A stretch of 35,370 bases of DNA from the IMG/VR virus record IMGVR_UViG_3300033153_003685, positions 1 through 35,370 of that record, one strand, 5' to 3'. This stretch comes from a virus. A program made the translations under genes and the position numbers. Shown piece after piece: positions 5,898-29,077 of the stretch (positions are counted from its first letter, which is position 1; every line of letters begins with the position of its first letter). The notes below the pieces were generated by a model. It was not told the DNA's origin, ran no database searches, and saw nothing but the letters and a program-made list of their open reading frames with translations.

Positions 5898-6524
5898 CTA
5901 GCCCCATAAGATGTTGGCGATTAAGTTGGCCGCCTTGCCGGGGTCCGTCAGAGCTTCCTTGCCGATGTCGAGCGCCGAATCTAGGAAATCCTTGGGAGCC
6001 TCATCCTCGAAGCCGCCGCCCTGCTCTTGCTCTGGGCCAAGAGCTTCGCCACCAAACGTGCCGGCCCCGCGCTTGATTGGCGCCGGCTTTGGTATCCACT
6101 CAATTGCGCTCATGCTAATGGTCATGACTCCGCTGGAGCGGTCAAGCTCTGGAAAGCCAATCTGGCTTATATAGATGGCGCTGATTCCCAGCGCGTTACA
6201 CTGTGGGTGAACAATCTCGGTCGGTGTCCTCACTCCACCTTTTCGCTTCGGATGAATCAGCGGGAGCAGTTCGTTGAATTTCTTCCAGTGCTCGGCGGTC
6301 CAAAGACGAAGGCTTATGCTAATCTTCGCCGGGTCCATGCCGTTGTCTTTCAACGTGCCGCCGTCCTTGCCTTTCGTCTTCTTAACGTCAATCCGACGCT
6401 TGACGCCAGACCCTGAAATCTCCGCAAGCCCTGGCCAGATATTGCCCGCCATCAGTAGGCGGTCCCATTGGTCCTGACCTTGCCCGCTGTCATTCCAAAA
6501 CGGAGTGTAGACGGGCTCGGTCAT
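5898..6524 (-). CDS. Tail protein between tape measure and hub, possible LysM-like adaptor
   Basis: 208 residues. The central part (IWPGLAEISGSGVKRRIDVKK, then a GTLKDNGMDPAKISISLRLW segment and WTAEHWKKF) resembles small tail proteins that follow the tape measure in compact myoviruses. The C-terminal 50 residues are acidic and low in complexity. Mu has the much larger gpN here. It overlaps the tape-measure gene by 4 bases and lies 3 bases before the hub gene. Inferred role: connecting the tape-measure end or tube to the baseplate hub. The exact family is not recognised. Confidence 0.5.
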   Translation of the reverse strand: MTEPVYTPFWNDSGQGQDQWDRLLMAGNIWPGLAEISGSGVKRRIDVKKTKGKDGGTLKDNGMDPAKISISLRLWTAEHWKKFNELLPLIHPKRKGGVRTPTEIVHPQCNALGISAIYISQIGFPELDRSSGVMTISMSAIEWIPKPAPIKRGAGTFGGEALGPEQEQGGGFEDEAPKDFLDSALDIGKEALTDPGKAANLIANILWG

Positions 6525-8443
6525 CCACCAATCTCCACGGCCATTTGCTCGAAGGCTGACGCCATCTCCATTAGCTGCATTCGCTTGACCATTCGCGCCG
6601 TGTCCTCCGCGCTCTGGGCTTCGGTGACGTTGAAAGTGTTCGAGTTGTTTTGTGTGACGTTGGCGCCGCCGCCTCCGAGTGATGGCGTCACCGCGCTGGC
6701 GCTCATCGCTGGAATGCTTGCACCAACATCGGCAAAGCCCTCCTCATAGCCGAGCGCTGACATGGCTCCCATATTCTCGAACACCTTGGACGGTGACGAG
6801 ATGCCGAGCGCGCCTTTTGCGGCGTCGATTCCGCTGCTCACTACGCCAGTGATTGCGCTCACCACTGCGCCGGCGGCGGCTTTGATGCCCTCTACGAGCC
6901 CTGCCATCATGTCGCCGCCGAGACCCATGAAGCCCGCCGCAAATTCTTTGATGGCATTCCAGGCAGCCGAAAAGGCGCTGCCAATAATTGAGCCGAGCGC
7001 CATCAGTGGGCCAACTGTGCTCTCTATTCCGAAGACAATCGCATCCCATAACATACCGAAGGCATTCCACAAGATGATCACCGGCGCTGCGGCTATGGCT
7101 AGCGCCACGGCTATGGCTGCACCTGCCGCCAAAACCACCACGCCCAAAACCTTAAACATCGTTATCATCGCGCTAACTGGTCCCGCCGTTATTCCCATGT
7201 CGGCAAGCTTGTCGGTTGTTGCTTCGGTCGCTTGCGCCGCGCTTGCCATTAAGCCAACGAGGCCGGCCGTGGCCTTGGCTATCAGCTTGATGGCGGGCCA
7301 GGCTTGCGCCGCAGACCGGGCGAGCATTCCGAAGCCTTCAACCATATCGGCCATCAGATTCTTGGCGCCTTCGCTCTTGCTCCACGCCATAATCTCCTCA
7401 ACGATTGGGCCGAATGCCTTGCGGATTGACGGGAGCACCTTTTGAGCGAACTCGATGAAGGCGCCTTGTCCAGCGGCCTTCATCTTGCCCCACATGCCGG
7501 ACAGTGTTTTGGTCGCCTTGATTCCAGCGTCGCCAAGATTGTCGATGTGGAGCTTCTGCATGACTGCGGCCTTGATGGCCTTTAACCCCATGGCGGAGGT
7601 AATCTTGCCGGCCTGCATCATCTTCATAATTTGCTTCGGCGTCTTATTGAGTTGCTTGCCGAGAGCATCATAGACCAGCTTCATGCTTATCCCGCGTTCG
7701 GCTAGCTGCATCATCTCCTCGCCCGCAAGCTTGCCCTTGCTCTTAATTTGAGTCATCGCCGTGATGATGCCCTGGGTGGCCTCCGCTCCCATTCCGAGCG
7801 CCTTCATGTCGGCGGCCATCTTCACGACATCGGTCGCTTCGCTCAGGCTAAACTGCATCGCGAGAAGCTTCTTGAACTGGTCCGTTGTTTCCATAACGTC
7901 CAGCCCATAGGTCTTCGAGAGCTTGATAGCCCTCGCCATCGCCGCATTTCCTTTCTTGACTCCACCGGCAACGAAACTGAATCCCATGCGGGTCTTCTCA
8001 ACCCATGCCGCCATCTTAATCGTTGCCCCAACAAACTTGACCATGGCCGCAGCCGCAGCCTTTATAGCGGACACGATTAGGGCAATCGCTGCCGCTGCGG
8101 CCCCAGCCTTCAGCGCCATGCTACCCAATGCCGAGCCCATGCCACCAGTCGCGCCCGCCGAGGCGCGTTGATAGCCAATGTTCTTCATCATCTCCTTGGC
8201 GCGGCTGTTGGCGTGTTTTGTTCTCGACTTGTTGAACCTAGCCGCAGAGGACTCGCTAGCCTTGGTCGCCTGCTTTGCCTTGTCGGCGGCCTTGCTAATC
8301 TTCCGCATGGCGCGAGCCAAGGCATCAAAGTCCTTCTTCGATGTTTGGGCGGCGCGGCCAATCTTCTCGACGGCCGCGGAAGCTTTCTTGGCTGGACCAC
8401 TGACCTTCTCGGTCAATTTAACGGTTAGTTCGACGCCGGCCAT
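6521..8443 (-). CDS. Tape measure protein
   Basis: 640 residues, the longest tail gene. The N-terminal 110 residues are charged and coiled-coil-like (KKASAAVEKIGRAAQTSKKD). Ala-rich hydrophobic segments lie near residues 110-145 and 400-465, followed by a Gly/Ala-rich region and ALGISSPSKVFENMG near residue 550, a C-terminal motif typical of tape measure proteins. It sets tail length and probably helps DNA cross the inner membrane. At 640 residues the tail should be short for a myovirus. It follows the chaperone gene and overlaps the end of its frameshifted extension by 26 bases. Confidence 0.9.
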   Translation of the reverse strand: MAGVELTVKLTEKVSGPAKKASAAVEKIGRAAQTSKKDFDALARAMRKISKAADKAKQATKASESSAARFNKSRTKHANSRAKEMMKNIGYQRASAGATGGMGSALGSMALKAGAAAAAIALIVSAIKAAAAAMVKFVGATIKMAAWVEKTRMGFSFVAGGVKKGNAAMARAIKLSKTYGLDVMETTDQFKKLLAMQFSLSEATDVVKMAADMKALGMGAEATQGIITAMTQIKSKGKLAGEEMMQLAERGISMKLVYDALGKQLNKTPKQIMKMMQAGKITSAMGLKAIKAAVMQKLHIDNLGDAGIKATKTLSGMWGKMKAAGQGAFIEFAQKVLPSIRKAFGPIVEEIMAWSKSEGAKNLMADMVEGFGMLARSAAQAWPAIKLIAKATAGLVGLMASAAQATEATTDKLADMGITAGPVSAMITMFKVLGVVVLAAGAAIAVALAIAAAPVIILWNAFGMLWDAIVFGIESTVGPLMALGSIIGSAFSAAWNAIKEFAAGFMGLGGDMMAGLVEGIKAAAGAVVSAITGVVSSGIDAAKGALGISSPSKVFENMGAMSALGYEEGFADVGASIPAMSASAVTPSLGGGGANVTQNNSNTFNVTEAQSAEDTARMVKRMQLMEMASAFEQMAVEIGG

Positions 8444-8633
8444 GGTTCTTCGTTTTCAAATATGCTCTTGAGAATGCTCGTGCGATGTCGTGAAATTCAG
8501 CGTGGAGAAGCGCGCCTTCGACGGCCAAGCTGGTCGGCTCGTCCGAATCGTTTCGGTCGCAGTATTGGAAAGCCAGCAACGCGCGGGCGGCGTAATAAAG
8601 GTTCTTCTTAGCCCGCTCGAAGCCGGCTACCCT
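8418..8633 (-). CDS. Frameshift extension of the tail assembly chaperone (-1 frame)
   Basis: The chaperone's zero frame ends GTG AAA AAA GGG TAG (8641-8627). In the -1 frame an open stretch of 71 codons starts AGG GTA GCC within the A6G3 run and ends at TAA 8420-8418, inside the tape-measure start. The translation is protein-like (FERAKKNLYYAARALLAFQY, LLHAEFHDIARAF). There is no good start codon or ribosome site of its own. Tail chaperone genes ahead of the tape measure commonly make a longer form by programmed frameshifting. The site is not a textbook X-XXY-YYZ heptamer; the peptidyl Lys-tRNA could slip AAA to AAA. The fusion would be about 182 residues. Confidence 0.72.
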   Translation of the reverse strand, partial: RVAGFERAKKNLYYAARALLAFQYCDRNDSDEPTSLAVEGALLHAEFHDIARAFSRAYLKTKNHGRRRTNR

Positions 8634-8965
8634 TTTTTCACCTCGACCTCCACCTCGGTCCCTGCCAGCTCTTGGATAGCTGTGGCCGCTTGCAACACCA
8701 TGCCGGGCATCTTTTCAAAGACGACAAGCAAGTCCTCGCGCGATGGGTAGACGCGGCAAGCGATAGCAAGCTCCCGCATTGAAGCGAACTTGCTACCCTT
8801 ACCATCCGTTATCTTATCGGTGAAGCGCTGATAGTCAGCGAAGCTAGGAGACTTGAAGGCCACTTTGCCGTGCCGGGTGGCGAACACATGAATTTCTCCG
8901 TGCTCCTTCGCCAGCTCGTCAAGCTCAGCCTCTTCTGTTTTAACTTCCTTCAATGCTGATCCCAT
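8627..8965 (-). CDS. Tail assembly chaperone, short form (Mu gp41 position)
   Basis: 112 residues, acidic N-terminus (EVKTEEAELDELAKEHGE), then KVAFKSPSFADYQRF and an alpha-helical C-terminus ending EVEVEVKKG. Size, position between tail tube and tape measure, and the slippery run at its end fit the family of small chaperones that bind the tape measure before the tube polymerises around it. It begins 10 bases after the tube gene. The longer frameshifted product is described separately at 8418-8633. Confidence 0.78.
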   Translation of the reverse strand: MGSALKEVKTEEAELDELAKEHGEIHVFATRHGKVAFKSPSFADYQRFTDKITDGKGSKFASMRELAIACRVYPSREDLLVVFEKMPGMVLQAATAIQELAGTEVEVEVKKG

Positions 8966-8975
8966 AGTCTACCCC

Positions 8976-9425
8976 TTATGTGAGAATGCCGCTGACGGCG
9001 TTTAGGCCGTCAGTCTCTACCCTGAAGATGCTCAGGTCAAGGCTCACCTCAAGCGGGTCCGTTCCTTGGCTGCCGCCGCCCTCCATGTTGGTTATACGGC
9101 AGCCGATGAGCCGGTTAACTTGGACGGGAGCGTTTGTGTCAGAGTAGGTGATGGTCACGCTGAAGCTCTGCTCCATGAAGCCGTCACCGAGCGCCTTGAT
9201 GATTTCCGCATACTCCTCGGAATAGACCACCATGGAGCCCTCGGCGGTATACTCGCCGCGGGTGCGGCCAAGAAGCTCGGCGCGAGTACCGCGCACCTCG
9301 CCAGGTTCAAGGCTATGGGTGAAGCTGATTTCCTTCACGCCGGTGAAAATGCCGATGTCACCAACATCGATCTCGATGGAGCTGTAATCGTATTTGTTGC
9401 CGTTTATGAGTGGGTAGGTAGCCAT
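8976..9425 (-). CDS. Tail tube protein
   Basis: 149 residues directly after the sheath gene, the conserved sheath-tube pair. It is beta-rich: SSIEIDVGDIGIFTGVKEISFTHS at the start, then RGEYTAEGSMVVYSEEYAEI and the C-terminal RITNMEGGGSQGTDPLEVSL, where a loop before the last beta hairpin ends in a PLEVSLDLS strand as in many tube proteins. It forms the hexameric rings of the inner tube. Size is close to other myovirus tube proteins (about 120-175 residues). Confidence 0.85.
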   Translation of the reverse strand: MATYPLINGNKYDYSSIEIDVGDIGIFTGVKEISFTHSLEPGEVRGTRAELLGRTRGEYTAEGSMVVYSEEYAEIIKALGDGFMEQSFSVTITYSDTNAPVQVNRLIGCRITNMEGGGSQGTDPLEVSLDLSIFRVETDGLNAVSGILT

Positions 9426-9434
9426 TATGAATCC

Positions 9435-10874
9435 TTAGACGGTCACAGAGAAGCCGATTTGCGTGGTGATATATTTGCTGTAGCCAAGCGGGCGGACAGC
9501 AACGTCGCTGTTGACCGTTTGCGAGACTTGGATGTTATTGGTGCGGTCTATTTGGTAACTGAAGTCAGAGACATGGCCGCGCGTCCCTTCCGCGTTGCTC
9601 GGTGCGGTGAGCTGGGCCGCCAAGGCATCGCGCCCTCTTGTCTCCAGCCTTGCCGCGTCCAGCTCGTTGATGGTGCCGGTCGGCGTCGTCCGCAGGCCCA
9701 TCGAGATGAAGTTTTGCTGAACGAGGTAGGTCGTCTTGCAAGCCACGTCCATGACGCGCCCATACTGCCAATAAATGAAGTCCGAGCCGGGGTCACTCTT
9801 CAGCCTGGCGTTGGTAATGTAGAAGCCGGGACGCCCCAGCCAACTACGGGTGGTCGTGATTCGGTGGACGTCTAGCACCTCATTCAGAAATTCATCGTGC
9901 GAGATTGAGAGCACTCCAGCGAGCGCTCCCGATGCCACGCGGGCGAGGTCGGTGCTGATAAGAGATGCAGCGGCGCGCGAGCCAACCACGTCCACAATTG
10001 AGCGGCTAGGTGCTCCCCAGCCGGAGAAGGCCTTGCTAGATGCGACATCACAAGAACCGTAGCAGACGCAAATCCGGTTATCGCTCACGGCTCCGAAGGC
10101 GGTGATAACGTTGGCCGTCGTGTCGTCGCCAGCGTCCATGATGGCGCGGGTGAAGCGAAACTGGCTTTCAAAGGCCGCCATGTGAGTCTGAAGCGCGCCA
10201 AACAACGTCACGCCATCTGCCGCAGTCGCCGGCGTGCCGGTGAGAATCAGGAAAGCCCATTCCGTGGAATCGGCCAGCAACGCGGTGACCGCAGTCGCCA
10301 AGCCAGCGGCGTTATAATAGGGCGCAGTGCAGTCGAAGCTGTGAACGTCGCCAAGCTCGAAAGCAATCGGCCCGCCGCCAACGACAAAGGTCAGCGTCAG
10401 CCCGGTGCTCGGCACGGTGTAGGTCATGCCGGCAGGGACGTTGATGGGCTCGCTGAAGGTGCGGCCGTCGTCAAGACTATAGCGAAAGACGCCGGTCCCC
10501 ATCGTGATGCCGTCAGACGTTTCCACGACGAGGACTTGCACCTCATAGGAATCGTTGGAAGCGCCCGCGACCGTGATGGTGCCAGTTGATGCGCCAACGC
10601 GGACGGGCGTTACCGCTCCAGCGGCGCCAGCGGCGTTAACCGTCAGAGCCATCGCAAGGACCGGGCTGCCAGCGATGTCGAGCGAGCGGCATACCGCTTC
10701 AGTTAACGGACCCTGGCCAAGCGCCGTCACTGCTGCGCTCTTGGTCGAGAAACTTTGAAGGGTATCGACTGCGCCAAGCTCGCAACAGCCGAGCAGAAGC
10801 GGAGTCGTGGACGAAGGCTCAACGAGCCCTAGACCGGGGTCTAGGATGGTGATGGTCTGATTCGGAATGGGCAT
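9435..10874 (-). CDS. Contractile tail sheath protein (DUF2586-like, Mu gpL position)
   Basis: 479 residues, the expected size for a Mu-type sheath. Segments typical of the family are the N-terminal strand, ESQFRFTRAIMDAGDD and FGAVSDNRICVCYG in the middle, RIVDVV-like SRSIVDVVGSRAAASLI, then GFYITNARLKSDPGSDF and the conserved C-terminal core with KYITTQIGFSV. Its presence shows the phage is a myovirus. The tube gene follows after 9 bases. A Gly/Ala-rich insertion around residues 80-140 may be a surface-exposed domain. Confidence 0.9.
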   Translation of the reverse strand: MPIPNQTITILDPGLGLVEPSSTTPLLLGCCELGAVDTLQSFSTKSAAVTALGQGPLTEAVCRSLDIAGSPVLAMALTVNAAGAAGAVTPVRVGASTGTITVAGASNDSYEVQVLVVETSDGITMGTGVFRYSLDDGRTFSEPINVPAGMTYTVPSTGLTLTFVVGGGPIAFELGDVHSFDCTAPYYNAAGLATAVTALLADSTEWAFLILTGTPATAADGVTLFGALQTHMAAFESQFRFTRAIMDAGDDTTANVITAFGAVSDNRICVCYGSCDVASSKAFSGWGAPSRSIVDVVGSRAAASLISTDLARVASGALAGVLSISHDEFLNEVLDVHRITTTRSWLGRPGFYITNARLKSDPGSDFIYWQYGRVMDVACKTTYLVQQNFISMGLRTTPTGTINELDAARLETRGRDALAAQLTAPSNAEGTRGHVSDFSYQIDRTNNIQVSQTVNSDVAVRPLGYSKYITTQIGFSVTV

Positions 10875-21815: not shown

Positions 21816-23001
21816 CAGCTACCCTCTTGGCCTTCTTGCCGGTTAGATTCTGCCAGCGCTCCACAATCACGTCGCAATATGCCGGGCTAATTTCAATGCC
21901 GTAGCACTTTCGGCCTAGCTGCTCGGCGGCGATGAGCGTTGTCCCTGAGCCTAGGAAGGGGTCCAGAACTAGATGCTTCTGGTTTGTGATAAGGGCCAAA
22001 AGCTCGGACCATAGCGCCATGGGCTTTTGGGTTTCGTGGGATGTTCTCTCTCTGCCCATTGCCCGGTTAGACTCAAAACAATTAGCCGTTGCCCCGCCGC
22101 CGTTCCAGCACAACACCTTGCCCGGTTTTCTTGCAAAGACTCCAGCCTCAACCGTCGAGCAGAAATTCTTCCTCGGCTGAGGAACAATCGATTTCTTCCA
22201 GTAGACACAATGAAGGGGACGGAGGCCCGCGCTCTTAACCGCTTCCCAAAGCCTTGTTATACCCGCACATTCCCAAAAGCAAATCGTCGCTCCCCCGTCT
22301 TTTGTTGCGCCAAATGCGAGCGGTATCCAATCCACCGGTGCGAACTTGTCCCATTCAATATCAAAGGATTTTAGCTCGCCTCCTCGCAATTGAACCTTCG
22401 ATTTGCTAGCCGTTCCATACGGCGGATCAGTCAGCACAGCGTCCGCCTTCTCGCCGCCCATCAGCGTCGCCACGTCTTCGCCCCTCGTCGAGTCACCGCA
22501 TAACACCCGGTGGTCGCCAAGCTGCCAAAGGTCGCCCGCCTTCGTCACCGGGTCCGCTGGCGGCTCTGGAGCTTCATCCTCAACGATGTCCCCCGTGCCA
22601 ATCGTCTCACTAATCAGCCTCTCAAGCTCAGCCTCGTCGAAGCCCGCAGCCGCTAACAGCTCCTCATCATCTATGGCCAACGCGCTGAGCTGCTCGGCTA
22701 GCGCTGCGTCGTCCCACTCGGCAAGCTCGCTGCTCCGGTTATCCGCGATGGCGAAAGCCGTCCTATCGCTACCCTTGAGCCCGGTCTTCACCGCGTCAAT
22801 CTTCTTCCAGCCTAGCGCCTTGGCCGCTTCAAGCGTTCCGTTGCCAGCGACTACCACGCCATCTGGACCAACCACAATCGGCTTCTGTTGGCCAAACCTG
22901 GCCAGGCTGCCCTTGATAGCGTCAAGGTTCTTGCCGCTGTGCTTTCGCACGTTGGAGGGGTCGTTGACCAACTCCGCGACCGCTATTGATTGCACCTTCA
23001 T
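21799..23001 (-). CDS. ParB-like N-terminal domain fused to DNA methyltransferase
   Basis: 400 residues. Residues 1-110 are a ParB/Srx-type domain (SNVRKHSGKNLDAIKGSLARF, VVAGNGTLEAAKALGW, then ADNRSSELAEWDD). The GERR box of true ParB is replaced by GNGT, and no ParB HTH follows. The C-terminal half is an amino-methyltransferase of the beta order: TDPPYG (191-196), HETQKP (322-327) and DPFLGSGTT (347-355), the last two forming the SAM pocket. It would methylate adenine or cytosine N4 in phage DNA; the target is unknown. The gene overlaps its neighbours by 4 and 17 bases. Confidence 0.9.
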   Translation of the reverse strand: MKVQSIAVAELVNDPSNVRKHSGKNLDAIKGSLARFGQQKPIVVGPDGVVVAGNGTLEAAKALGWKKIDAVKTGLKGSDRTAFAIADNRSSELAEWDDAALAEQLSALAIDDEELLAAAGFDEAELERLISETIGTGDIVEDEAPEPPADPVTKAGDLWQLGDHRVLCGDSTRGEDVATLMGGEKADAVLTDPPYGTASKSKVQLRGGELKSFDIEWDKFAPVDWIPLAFGATKDGGATICFWECAGITRLWEAVKSAGLRPLHCVYWKKSIVPQPRKNFCSTVEAGVFARKPGKVLCWNGGGATANCFESNRAMGRERTSHETQKPMALWSELLALITNQKHLVLDPFLGSGTTLIAAEQLGRKCYGIEISPAYCDVIVERWQNLTGKKAKRVADGKAA

Positions 23002-23582
23002 CCGTCGATTCCAAGACCTAGCTGGCGACTTTCTTCGCTGTGCATTTTCTTATACTTGTCATGATAGGCGATGAATCGGGGCCGCCTATTGTGCCGCTCT
23101 GTTGGGTCGTTCATCGCCCTGTTACAAGCTGTGCATGTTGGCCAAGTGCCCTCAAAGCTCGCGTCACTCGTCTGGTCCATATGGTCTATCTCAATTTCAG
23201 ACGGTCCAACCGGCCCATAGCAACAAGGAAACTCGTGGAGTTCGTTTGTGAGATAAGCGCAATGGCGCTTTCTCGTTTTTTTCGTTGGTCGCTTCTTCTT
23301 GTTTCGATACGTGAAGGCGCAAAGCTTGGCCAACCTCTCGCCCTGCTCATCAGCCTTGCTAAGAAGGGCACCGAGATAACCGTTGACCTCAGATTCTTGG
23401 TCCCTATTGGCGTGGGCTGAGATAGCCTCCTCCGCAATATCGGACAAGCTACGATCCTCGGTGGCCGCGGCTATTCGCAATCGCTTCGCGGTGGTCTTGT
23501 CGAGATAGACCGTGATTCTTTGCTTGCCTGGAGCAATCGTATCGCCACAAAAGTCCACATCATGAATAACTGACTCGCTCAT
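22998..23582 (-). CDS. Ribbon-helix-helix / HNH endonuclease fusion
   Basis: 194 residues from ATG 23582, chosen because AGGGG lies 6 bases upstream; a longer frame to 23672 lacks such a site. Residues 21-60 are an RHH-type DNA-binding segment (QRITVYLDKTTAKRLRIAA, SLSDIAEEAIS). A basic linker (NKKKRPTKKTRKR) leads to an HNH domain: IEIDHMDQ (His134), CTACNRAMND (Asn154, with CxxC 150-153) and ERHNRR (His164). HNH nucleases beside terminases assist DNA cutting in some phages. The RHH part may direct it to a site or repress its own promoter (inference). Confidence 0.75.
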   Translation of the reverse strand: MSESVIHDVDFCGDTIAPGKQRITVYLDKTTAKRLRIAAATEDRSLSDIAEEAISAHANRDQESEVNGYLGALLSKADEQGERLAKLCAFTYRNKKKRPTKKTRKRHCAYLTNELHEFPCCYGPVGPSEIEIDHMDQTSDASFEGTWPTCTACNRAMNDPTERHNRRPRFIAYHDKYKKMHSEESRQLGLGIDG

Positions 23583-23769
23583 CCGGTCCCCTTCACTCTC
23601 ACTATTGACATAACCAAAGAGCCCGCGGACGCCGAGAAAAACATGAACGAAAGAAAGCGTCACGCGGGCCATCTTAGCCTACAGCATGATCGTGATTTCT
23701 CCAATAGTCCCTATATGTATCGTGCGCTCGTGCAACACGGTGCAACCATCATGAGTACATCATGTACCC
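23583..23769 (-). promoter_or_regulatory. Intergenic control region with inverted repeats before the packaging operon
   Basis: This is the longest non-coding gap within the operon array. It holds a perfect 13-base palindrome GTACATCATGTAC (23755-23767), overlapping the end of the HTH gene, and two GTGCAAC copies near 23730-23746. A long inverted repeat pairs 23621-23632 (GCCCGCGGACGC) with 23657-23669 (GCGTCACGCGGGC), 11 pairs and one bulge, with a 24-base loop. A weak promoter-like TTGGAG-17-TAGGCT reads on the minus strand. I infer an operator/promoter or leader hairpin for the RHH-HNH-methyltransferase-terminase genes. Confidence 0.45.
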
Positions 23770-27054: not shown

Positions 27055-28373
27055 TTGCGCCACCCATAACGGGTCGTTGTCGTTTCGACAATGCCTCCAG
27101 CGTCAGCGATGGCTTTCATTATCTCCGCTTCCCTTTCTTTGCCAAGCCCCTTTAGTGCCGACCGGTTTAGTTTTCGCGGAGCCAGCTCATCAAGCTCGCC
27201 GTCGTCCGCCGTCAATTCGGCCAGCATCACCATACCGCTTTCAGTGAGCCCAGAGAAGCGCGGACTTTCTTTCGCTTCCCACTTCTTGTCGTCTTCTTCT
27301 CGTGTGATTTCATTGTCCGCGGAGTAGTCTTTCAAGCTTGACTCCAGCTCCTTGACTAGCTTCTTGACGCTCGGCAGGAAGGCGATCGCCTTGAGCGCTT
27401 GCGAGTTGTTCGTCACCTTGCACAGCTCGGCCCCTGGCTCGATGATGACCGGCTTCTTGCTAATCGTGGCGAGCGCTTGCCCTTGAGCCGGACAGACTCG
27501 GCGGTAGCTACACCAATTTTTCGTGCAATGCTCGCCAACGACGGGCGGCCAGATGCCCGAAGAGATTCGGCTTGCCGTGTCGCAGAGCTTGACCGCTGCC
27601 GCTTCAATCTCTTCGTCGCTGTAGGTCCAGCCGTCGACTTCGATGCTGCCGTCCTCGCCAACAAACCAAAGCTCGAATCGAATCGGGTCTGGAGCTTCTC
27701 CGCGGCGCACTTGGGCCGTTTGGTGCGTCCCGTATCGAATCGCGCAAGCTGCCACCAGACCCTGCATGTTGTATCTTGCCGGCGTGACGTTATCGCGGCG
27801 CCCGGTTTTGTAGTCCACGACAACGATGGGCCCTCCGTCAAACTCTGGCCACGCCTCCAAGTCGGTCGTCATCGCGATGTCGCCGTCCTCGACCTCTTTA
27901 TAGTTGCGGTGTCCGGGGGCGTCCGCTTCGTAGCCAGTGAAGCCAACTGTTGGATTCCCGTATGGGCTGAAGGCCAACTTCTGCTCTAGATGCACACCGT
28001 AGTCGTCATCTGGGAAACGCTCCACGGCATATTGGGCAAGCGCTCGCCCGCGATTCTCGACGCTCTGAAGGTCAAACTCTACGCCGGGTGGGATAGAACC
28101 AGAGCGCTCCAGGTCGCCAATAAGCTCGGCCATGTTAGCCGATTCTGACAAGATGCTGTTGGGGCTTTCTAGTGGCGGGTTTTCGAGTCGGCTATATGCC
28201 AGGATGGTCATATAGTCCTCGGCTACGGCGTGAATCAGCGTCCCTTGATGGGCCGCAAAGCCAACGGTGCGATCGGGCTCTTGCCAAGGCTCGCCCGCTT
28301 CCGCTGCCGCCTCTGGTGCGCCGCAAGTCGTCGTGCGCTGGGTTTCGCTGCCGGTGAATATCGGGCCGCTCAT
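27051..28373 (-). CDS. Cas4/RecB-like PD-(D/E)XK exonuclease, probable Fe-S protein
   Basis: 440 residues. GTLIHAVAEDY (44-54), GDIAMTTDLEA (164-174) and IVVVDYKTG (183-191; Asp187, Lys189) form the nuclease core, with Gln204 in NMQGLVAACAIRY as motif IV. Cys17 near the start and Cys283, Cys288 and Cys294 after the core match the four-cysteine cluster of Cas4/AddB-type nucleases. The C-terminal 140 residues are helical. Coupled to ERF by ATGA overlap, it would chew double-strand ends to load the annealing protein. Confidence 0.85.
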   Translation of the reverse strand: MSGPIFTGSETQRTTTCGAPEAAAEAGEPWQEPDRTVGFAAHQGTLIHAVAEDYMTILAYSRLENPPLESPNSILSESANMAELIGDLERSGSIPPGVEFDLQSVENRGRALAQYAVERFPDDDYGVHLEQKLAFSPYGNPTVGFTGYEADAPGHRNYKEVEDGDIAMTTDLEAWPEFDGGPIVVVDYKTGRRDNVTPARYNMQGLVAACAIRYGTHQTAQVRRGEAPDPIRFELWFVGEDGSIEVDGWTYSDEEIEAAAVKLCDTASRISSGIWPPVVGEHCTKNWCSYRRVCPAQGQALATISKKPVIIEPGAELCKVTNNSQALKAIAFLPSVKKLVKELESSLKDYSADNEITREEDDKKWEAKESPRFSGLTESGMVMLAELTADDGELDELAPRKLNRSALKGLGKEREAEIMKAIADAGGIVETTTTRYGWRK

Positions 28374-29077
28374 GATTTGCTCTCCTTCGCTTTTCGTGCG
28401 CCCTCTTTCGCGCTAGCGATTGCGCTTTCGAGCGGGTCATCGGCCAAGTAGATTCGCTCGTCGGCTCGCTCGTGAGCCGCTTGCAACTTTTGGCGGCTTT
28501 TGATTGTCGTCGTCTTCTTCCAGATTGCCGTGACGCACTCCTTGGCGCCCTTTATGTCATCTTCGGTCTTGGCGTCCTCGTATAGCTTCAGAATTCGGTC
28601 AATCTCTGCGGATAGCTCGTTTGTCATGAGCTGGTGTTTTTTCTTTGTGTTCTTTGGTGCCCGAGCTTGCGACTCGCCGTCGTCGTCTTCTTCTCCAGCG
28701 ATGGCGAGGAGCGAGCAAAGTCCCTGCCGCTTCGCGTAGGTCAACCCGCTGCCAAAGTCCTGCGAGCCTGGCCGAGCAGTTATGATCGGCACGCTAGACT
28801 GGACCCACTGTCCGCTGGTGTGAGTGATTCGCGTCACGACCTCATAAGAGCGGACCGGCTGAGATAGCAATAGCGCGTGAGCATTGAGCGCTGGCTTTGC
28901 TGCTCGATACATCTCACCGAGTGAAGCGTATTTGGTCTTGAAGTGTGGGTTTGTCTTGTCGAACTTAGGGCTTCCCATTACCGATTGCGCCTTGACGAGC
29001 TGCGGCATAATCTTGTCAACCTTGGTCGACGTTAGCGGGAGAAATCCCCCTTCTTCGTTTTCTTCGATGTCGTTCAT
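28370..29077 (-). CDS. erf: ERF-family single-strand annealing protein
   Basis: 235 residues. The N-terminal core has the ERF signature: PQLVKAQSVMG, NPHFKTKYASLGEMYRAAKPALNAH and SQDFGSGLTYAKRQGLCSLLAIAGEEDDDG. The C-terminal 80 residues are helical and charged. ERF proteins form rings that anneal complementary single strands for recombination and genome circularisation. The gene precedes the Cas4-like nuclease and SSB. Confidence 0.92.
   Translation of the reverse strand: MNDIEENEEGGFLPLTSTKVDKIMPQLVKAQSVMGSPKFDKTNPHFKTKYASLGEMYRAAKPALNAHALLLSQPVRSYEVVTRITHTSGQWVQSSVPIITARPGSQDFGSGLTYAKRQGLCSLLAIAGEEDDDGESQARAPKNTKKKHQLMTNELSAEIDRILKLYEDAKTEDDIKGAKECVTAIWKKTTTIKSRQKLQAAHERADERIYLADDPLESAIASAKEGARKAKESKS

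Follow-up and report, generated by a model that had tools for sequence, protein, structure and literature searches.

The slip site in the phage lambda tail-chaperone system is G_GGA_AAG, and the founding comparison of tail-chaperone frameshifts is said to be that of Xu et al. in 2004. Tail chaperones with a -1 frameshift are a widespread and known phage feature: in lambda, a short chaperone gene lies before the tape-measure gene, and a low-level -1 slip near its 3' end adds a C-terminal extension, giving gpG and gpGT (PMC5009743). Likely +1 frameshifting is reported in the same source for the tail chaperone of haloarchaeal myovirus HSTV-2, and a -2 frameshift is cited for Mu, with no site found in phage KS10 (PMC2628397). 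Here, we describe the tail assembly chaperone gene of virus record IMGVR_UViG_3300033153_003685 (the window, that is, the whole stretch of DNA analysed, which is the complete virus record of 35,370 bases), in which a programmed -1 frameshift very probably yields a second, extended form of the chaperone (probability about 0.92). As in lambda, a short chaperone gene precedes the tape-measure gene and a C-terminal extension would be reached by a -1 slip near its 3' end; the locus differs from lambda in having a contractile tail with a Mu-type portal, an XkdN/DUF6848-like chaperone, and the putative slip site G_AAA_AAA. We regard it as an ordinary, well-supported G/GT-type tail-chaperone frameshift with a one-base variant site.

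Related slip sites have been described outside tail genes. The A_AAA_AAA and A_AAA sites of IS1 and IS3 elements likewise work by slippage of lysyl-tRNA on an A-run (PMC4066793); in the window, the motif begins with G and the protein made is a phage chaperone. Bacterial -1 sites include an accepted, weak class of Z_ZZN tetramers, among them A_AA.A; this tetramer is well represented in IS1/IS3, and A_AA.A_AA.A is among the commonest heptamers there (PMC4066793). G_AAA_AAA itself is one of seven A-rich framed consensus heptamers of predicted frameshift clusters, in a listing that carries no statement of G_AAA_AAA being tested (PMC3711429); in that source, two genes belonging to a phage tail-chaperone cluster shift at 6% and 7%, and an A_AAA_AAA cassette taken from a different cluster at 10%. 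The three-three motif is described as absent from most annotated frameshift overlaps, for which a broader set of motifs was used (PMC10885494).

Results

The elements of the locus are as follows (aa, amino acids; nt, nucleotides):

8627..8965, minus strand: tail assembly chaperone gene, zero frame (XkdN / DUF6848-like), 112 aa, open reading frame (ORF) call
8633..8639, minus strand: putative slip site G_AAA_AAA, in the zero-frame context GTG AAA AAA GGG TAG
8418..8633, minus strand: -1 frame extension, 71 codons from AGG at 8633, RVAGFERAKKNLYYAARALLAF..., with stop codon TAA at 8420-8418
8646..8651, minus strand: Shine-Dalgarno (SD)-like GGAGGT, candidate stimulator, 7 nt upstream of the A-run
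8567..8632, minus strand: candidate stimulatory stem-loop, adjoining the slip site on its downstream side
6521..8443, minus strand: tape-measure protein gene, 640 aa (PHROG 58, E 7.3e-21; Pfam TMP_3, E 4.1e-18)

The chaperone gene ends in GAG GTG AAA AAA GGG TAG, with the six A's at 8638-8633 and the TAG at 8629-8627. An open -1 frame extends from 8714 to the TAA at 8420-8418; its post-shift codons begin AGG GTA GCC, and it overlaps the tape-measure gene (ATG at 8443) by 26 nt. The predicted fusion has 111 + 71 = 182 aa; the -1 translation as listed has 73 residues, the first two of which (GAA AAA) overlap the zero frame. A preliminary description of this DNA, made from the letters alone, had proposed a 71-codon -1 frame that lacks a start of its own and ends just inside the tape-measure gene, and its coordinates and description are correct.

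Relatives were collected by scans and tblastn, giving 28 chaperone records including the window (the window, L002-L005, L010-L013 and L018-L036); one further phage match, H3 (a second Mx4 record), lies outside the 28. The genome collection yielded at least one relative. A wide tape-measure alignment was too divergent for scanning, and a narrower one re-found only contigs already among the relatives. The frame downstream of the chaperone is -1 in 17 of the 28 (the window, L002-L005, L012, L018-L021, L027 and L031-L036) and +1 in the other 11 (L010, L011, L013, L022-L026 and L028-L030); because many records are near copies of each other, these counts are not independent.

The -1 frame evolves as a protein and is under protein-level selection. 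In the segment bounded by the zero-frame stop and the start of the tape-measure gene, 22 positions distinguish the window from L004. Third positions of the -1 frame account for 17 of them, and the proportions of synonymous (pS) and nonsynonymous (pN) differences in that frame are 0.343 and 0.057. Over the same segment the zero frame beyond its stop shows the reverse (pS 0.051, pN 0.150), and the +1 frame gives pS 0.073 and pN 0.117. The pair L018/L021 has the same pattern as the window and L004 (-1 frame pS 0.648, pN 0.073), and in the pair L020/L034 it is weak (pS 0.288, pN 0.146). Conservation of the -1 frame in relatives had been named in the preliminary description as a check on a frame judged there to be protein-like; both hold, in that the extension is kept in the -1 frame with pS far above pN, and a profile of distant extensions matches that of the window.

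The closest differing records, L004 and L005, are 96% identical to the window in the chaperone and 90% in the extension, and carry an identical list of 61 differences from it over 596 bases, over which L002 and L003 are identical to the window. These records bear on the suggestion that the split is a dead remnant, or a sequencing error in a once-fused gene. Homopolymer runs are a common place for such errors; the arrangement is nevertheless repeated without change in L002 and L003, recurs in L004 and L005 with a run of seven A's, and is kept in distant lineages, so we reject this explanation and put its chance close to nil.

The profile built from six distant -1 extensions (L012, L019, L035, L031, L033 and L027, with the window excluded) was run against 1,940 six-frame ORFs and matched L004 (E 1.8e-7), the window (E 2.7e-6), and the six +1 loci in the database (E 3e-7 to 1.5e-4). 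A profile made of +1 extensions only matched L033, L020, L027, L034, L004 and the window at E 1.6e-5 to 0.012 (L020 at 3.2e-5, L034 at 0.002), followed by L035 (0.067) and L019 (0.24). The extension is thus homologous to those of distant relatives read in either direction. The extension had no match by tblastn against phage records at E up to 10, a PHROG search with 12 members returned none at E up to 0.01, and Pfam and PHROGs gave nothing for the -1 ORF of the window.

As in G/GT-type loci, the overlapping frame is conserved as a protein and lacks a usual start. None of the 71 post-shift codons is ATG or GTG, and the ORF list contains no -1 ORF of at least 60 aa led by ATG, GTG or TTG. This speaks against a separate small protein started within the -1 frame, by reinitiation after the TAG or from a TTG or rarer start codon, for which TTG codons are available at extension codons 19, 36 and 59 and a CTG at codon 20. 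The first TTG falls inside the conserved AARALLAF, and the 18 residues that precede it, starting at the R of RVAGFER, are unchanged in L004; moreover, heptamers in the relatives are confined to the overlap of the two frames, and reinitiation has no need of them. The annotators of Thermus phage Riverbug, MMP7 and Mx4 did call the downstream frame as a small gene of its own, and in L020 and L034 a -1 frame ATG overlaps the stop of the zero frame. We reject the separate protein for the window as very unlikely. At the TGATG of L020 and L034, where the ATG and the chaperone stop overlap, reinitiation could operate as well.

Slip sites were tabulated for 13 of the 17 -1 records (L002, L003, L005 and L032 were omitted as copies; L032 equals L033 over 518 bases), with the overlap box limited to 60 nt and then extended by one codon. 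An in-frame X_XXY_YYZ heptamer lies inside the box in 11 of the 13 loci; outside it, these genes have none in 1,120 codon positions. The motif is A_AAA_AAA in L004, L012, L019, L020, L027, L031, L034 and L035, T_TTT_TTC in L018 and L021, and A_AAT_TTG in L036. The two loci lacking a heptamer are the window and L033, both of which carry A_AAA. In the window, no in-frame X_XXY_YYZ heptamer occurs in the last ~60 nt of the zero frame, so the canonical two-tRNA motif is absent; the slip-prone element within the frame overlap would be the A_AAA of G_AAA_AAA. The 30 other window ORFs contain 18 X_XXY_YYZ heptamers in 8,573 codons, none of them of the A7 or T6 kind, and AAA AAA occurs 3 times in 9,777 codons (39 ORFs taken as genes), once exactly at the 3' end of the chaperone. 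Since the -1 frame is selected as a protein and the AAA AAA pair is rare, the arrangement is more than chance. The other two in-frame AAA AAA pairs are in the ORFs at 22998-23672 and 28370-29077.

The preliminary description had called the site a non-standard A6G3 motif that breaks the two-tRNA heptamer rule in the zero frame. That rule is indeed broken, only the A_AAA tetramer being present, and "non-standard" is literally right for a site with no heptamer; it overstates the case, as a single transition, G for A at 8639, separates the site from the A_AAA_AAA carried at the same place, within the seven-A run, by L004 and L005, and G_AAA_AAA is already in print. Six A's and then GGG are present as described, but in the -1 records compared, only L002-L005 share the three G's that follow the A-run, and the GGG is no conserved part of the site.

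Within the frameshift reading, the lysyl-tRNA on the second AAA might slip alone (A_AAA), the first base of the motif being G. The missing heptamer in the window suggests this, as do L033, in which the tetramer context TCA AAA GCC is followed by a very strong hairpin (n66 z -3.65), and the recognition of tetramer sites in IS elements (PMC4066793). The listing of G_AAA_AAA as a framed consensus heptamer hints instead that the P-site base still matters (PMC3711429), and would fit tandem slippage in which the P-site tRNA re-pairs with GAA through a G-U pair at the first position. Both routes give the same amino acids, so the sequence cannot tell one slipping tRNA from two; we hold the single-tRNA variant tentatively, at somewhat less than an even chance. 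The site of L033 (L033:3277-3288, with its copy L032) consists of the tetramer alone, TCA AAA GCC TAA, and then an immediate very strong hairpin (n50 z -4.58).

The second frame could also be made by RNA polymerase slipping on the A-run, as transcriptional slippage is quoted for A-runs with n > 7 (PMC3711429) and eight A's are found in L012, L019, L020, L034 and L035. The window, however, has six A's and L033 four, the sites of L018/L021 and L036 are T_TTT_TTC and A_AAT_TTG, and high efficiency is quoted for runs of nine (PMC5009743). As the runs in the window, L018, L021, L033 and L036 are too short or absent, transcriptional slippage is rejected as highly improbable.

Both sides of the slip site carry candidate stimulators. 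In the 22 nt before the A-run, the duplex with the anti-SD sequence has an energy of -10.0 kcal/mol, equalled by 83 of 7,183 in-phase coding 22-mers (25 ORFs). Downstream, the stem at 8632-8567 has a minimum free energy of -31.9 kcal/mol (z -3.09, 0 of 200 shuffles as good), and for the 80 nt from 8641 to 8562 z is -3.32, with 2 of 200 shuffles folding as well. Of 568 control coding windows of 66 nt, 1 reaches the energy of the stem and 11 reach the z of the site in that control, -2.78. Across the 13 -1 loci, n66 z falls below -2.5 in four: the window (-2.85), L033 (-3.65), L012 (-2.84) and L036 (-3.38). It is suggestive that the two weak slip motifs are paired with strong stems in these sequences, against which the heptamer loci L012 and L036 are equally strong.

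The upstream product is predicted to have a tail-chaperone fold, as in G/GT-type loci. The model (alignment A9, 13 sequences, mean predicted local distance difference test score [pLDDT] 82) retrieved 3fgx first in Foldseek (E 5.1e-4) and the HK97 chaperone 2ob9_A second (E 6.6e-3, probability 1.00); VIA-align 2 gave Z 11.2 for 3fgx, 5.7 for YqbN (3klu), 5.6 for 2ob9, 4.7 for 5ir0 (uncharacterised, from a phage-inducible-island-like element) and 3.3 for the next. The closest solved structures are thus YqbN and RBSTP2171 (3fgx, deposited as uncharacterised) among XkdN-like proteins; the chaperone profile also matches 3fgx by sequence (E 1.6e-10), and the chaperone of the MMP7 relative is annotated as XkdN-like. 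The HK97 chaperone resembles the window protein in predicted zero-frame fold and differs in sequence (11-16% identity), with its Z of 5.6 in the warning range of the tool. Of 13 family members, 10 match DUF6848 (PF20941) at E 0.01 or better (best 1.9e-10); the window protein matches it at E 0.0024 and 18.9 bits, below the Pfam cut-off of 27. The extension alone is predicted to form three helices (mean pLDDT 88).

Gene order agrees with this assignment. On the minus strand the order is sheath, probable tube, chaperone, tape measure, which places the small gene between the tail tube and tape-measure genes, as in G/GT-type loci, and together with the predicted fold it bears out the earlier naming of the gene as a tail chaperone. 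The two genes on the sheath side are:

8976..9425, minus strand: probable tail tube gene (phrog_9206 "major head protein", E 4.9e-12; phrog_4579 tail protein, E 1.6e-10)
9435..10874, minus strand: tail sheath gene, contractile tail (phrog_907 tail sheath, E 1.3e-19; DUF2586, E 2.1e-24)

The tube-like gene lies between the sheath and chaperone genes, and its MMP7 counterpart is annotated XkdM. The "major head protein" label of phrog_9206 scores slightly better than phrog_4579 for this gene and looks wrong given its position.

In relatives of the Thermus/Meiothermus type (L010, L011, L013, L022-L026 and L028-L030), the homologous extension follows TTT_C in the +1 frame, and a GAGGAGG-like SD lies a short way upstream of that site. 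All 11 have TTT C in the zero frame within the overlap, and 10 of the 11 share the context GCC ACC GAG GAG GCY GAN TTT CGN NCG CTC stop (L029 with GAA GAG); in L010 the context is GAG GAG ACG CGA TTT CTG, with the stop 45 nt further on. Between L011 and L024, the +1 frame has pS 0.476 and pN 0.028, against pS 0.012 and pN 0.186 in the zero frame. At the seven +1 loci measured, the upstream anti-SD energy is -8.6 to -11.8 kcal/mol, and there is a sign of a downstream hairpin in five (n50 z below -2 in L024, L026, L029 and L030, and -1.74 in L028), with no signal in L010 (+0.07) or L011 (+0.25). A programmed +1 frameshift at TTT_C, which a slip from TTT to TTC would fit, is probable on these sequences. 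In a literature search of limited scope, frameshifting was not reported for the tail chaperone of any Thermus phage, and the Thermus passages retrieved deal with other matters.

Discussion

The frameshift reading of the window would work as follows. Most ribosomes would read GTG AAA AAA GGG TAG and release the 112-aa short form, and a minority, with lysyl-tRNA on AAA AAA, would slip back one base and continue in the -1 frame, probably assisted by the GGAGGT upstream and the stem-loop downstream. The C-terminal 71 aa of the resulting 182-aa form would make up a helical domain. If the lambda pair gpG/gpGT is a guide, both forms would bind the tape-measure protein and the extended form would recruit tail tube subunits. 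The sequences show the anatomy of the locus, coding selection on the -1 frame, homology of the extension to those of distant relatives and a predicted chaperone fold; we infer the occurrence and efficiency of slippage, the number of slipping tRNAs, the roles of the flanking elements and what the extension does. The programmed -1 frameshift proposed in the preliminary description is supported by the conservation of the extension, by gene order and predicted fold, and by the lack of an ATG or GTG start.

Several points weigh on the other side. In E. coli, A_AA.A is the weakest of the six tetramers that reach four times background, and tetramers are reported as barely active without a stimulator (PMC4066793). 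The candidate stimulators are themselves uneven: upstream anti-SD strength varies from -3.9 to -11.7 kcal/mol across the 13 -1 loci, the length of the downstream stem was fitted to the stem itself, a 50-nt length downstream of the window's site gives no signal (z +0.51), and the L004 stem is weaker (z -1.6 to -2.1); given the fitted length, the null at 50 nt and the weaker L004 stem, the stem is suggestive only. Just two distinct close sequences were found for comparing the stem, too few for covariation. Homology of the extension is uneven too. The -1 profile gives weaker matches to L020 (E 0.037), L034 (0.55) and L036 (0.8) and none to the L018 and L021 extensions at E up to 10, and the +1-only profile does not match L012, L018, L021, L031 or L036; as L018 and L021 are unmatched, homology of their extensions is unsupported, and that of L036 is weak. 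Structurally, the Z of 5.6 for 2ob9 is below 8 and within 1 of that for 5ir0 (4.7), and a search of the viral structure library with the extension model gave nothing below E 4. The role given to the extension is borrowed from lambda.

A working rule expects orthologues to share their direction of ribosomal frameshifting and takes mixed directions as a sign of transcriptional slippage (PMC3711429). One homologous extension that some phages reach by -1 and others apparently by +1 runs against that rule; the likely +1 case of HSTV-2 is already in print, so a change of direction alone has precedent. We lean slightly towards the view that selection keeps the extension domain and the ribosomal route to it varies, through full -1 heptamers (A_AAA_AAA, perhaps also T_TTT_TTC and A_AAT_TTG), weakened one-tRNA -1 sites next to strong stems (the window and L033), or, in the Thermus/Meiothermus-type phages, TTT_C preceded by a GAGGAGG-like SD in the +1 direction. 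If this is true, the window would capture a heptamer partway through its change into a tetramer, and with it one stage in the turnover of recoding signals. The window and L004, with G_AAA_AAA and A_AAA_AAA in related flanks, form a natural one-base test of the weight of the first base of the heptamer; this comparison and the change of direction among relatives are of moderate interest.

The frameshift would add an unannotated second product to the phage tail module. Gene context and predicted fold also point to tail assembly chaperones for RBSTP2171 (3fgx) and DUF6848, labelled as uncharacterised or of unknown function, and the comparison lends support to the DUF6848/XkdN-like family as such chaperones. 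In Myxococcus phage Mx4, p57 and p58 (L012:2947-3494) are deposited as two hypothetical proteins, with no frameshift in the feature table; they look like a homologous chaperone and its -1 extension, joined at A_AAA_AAA.

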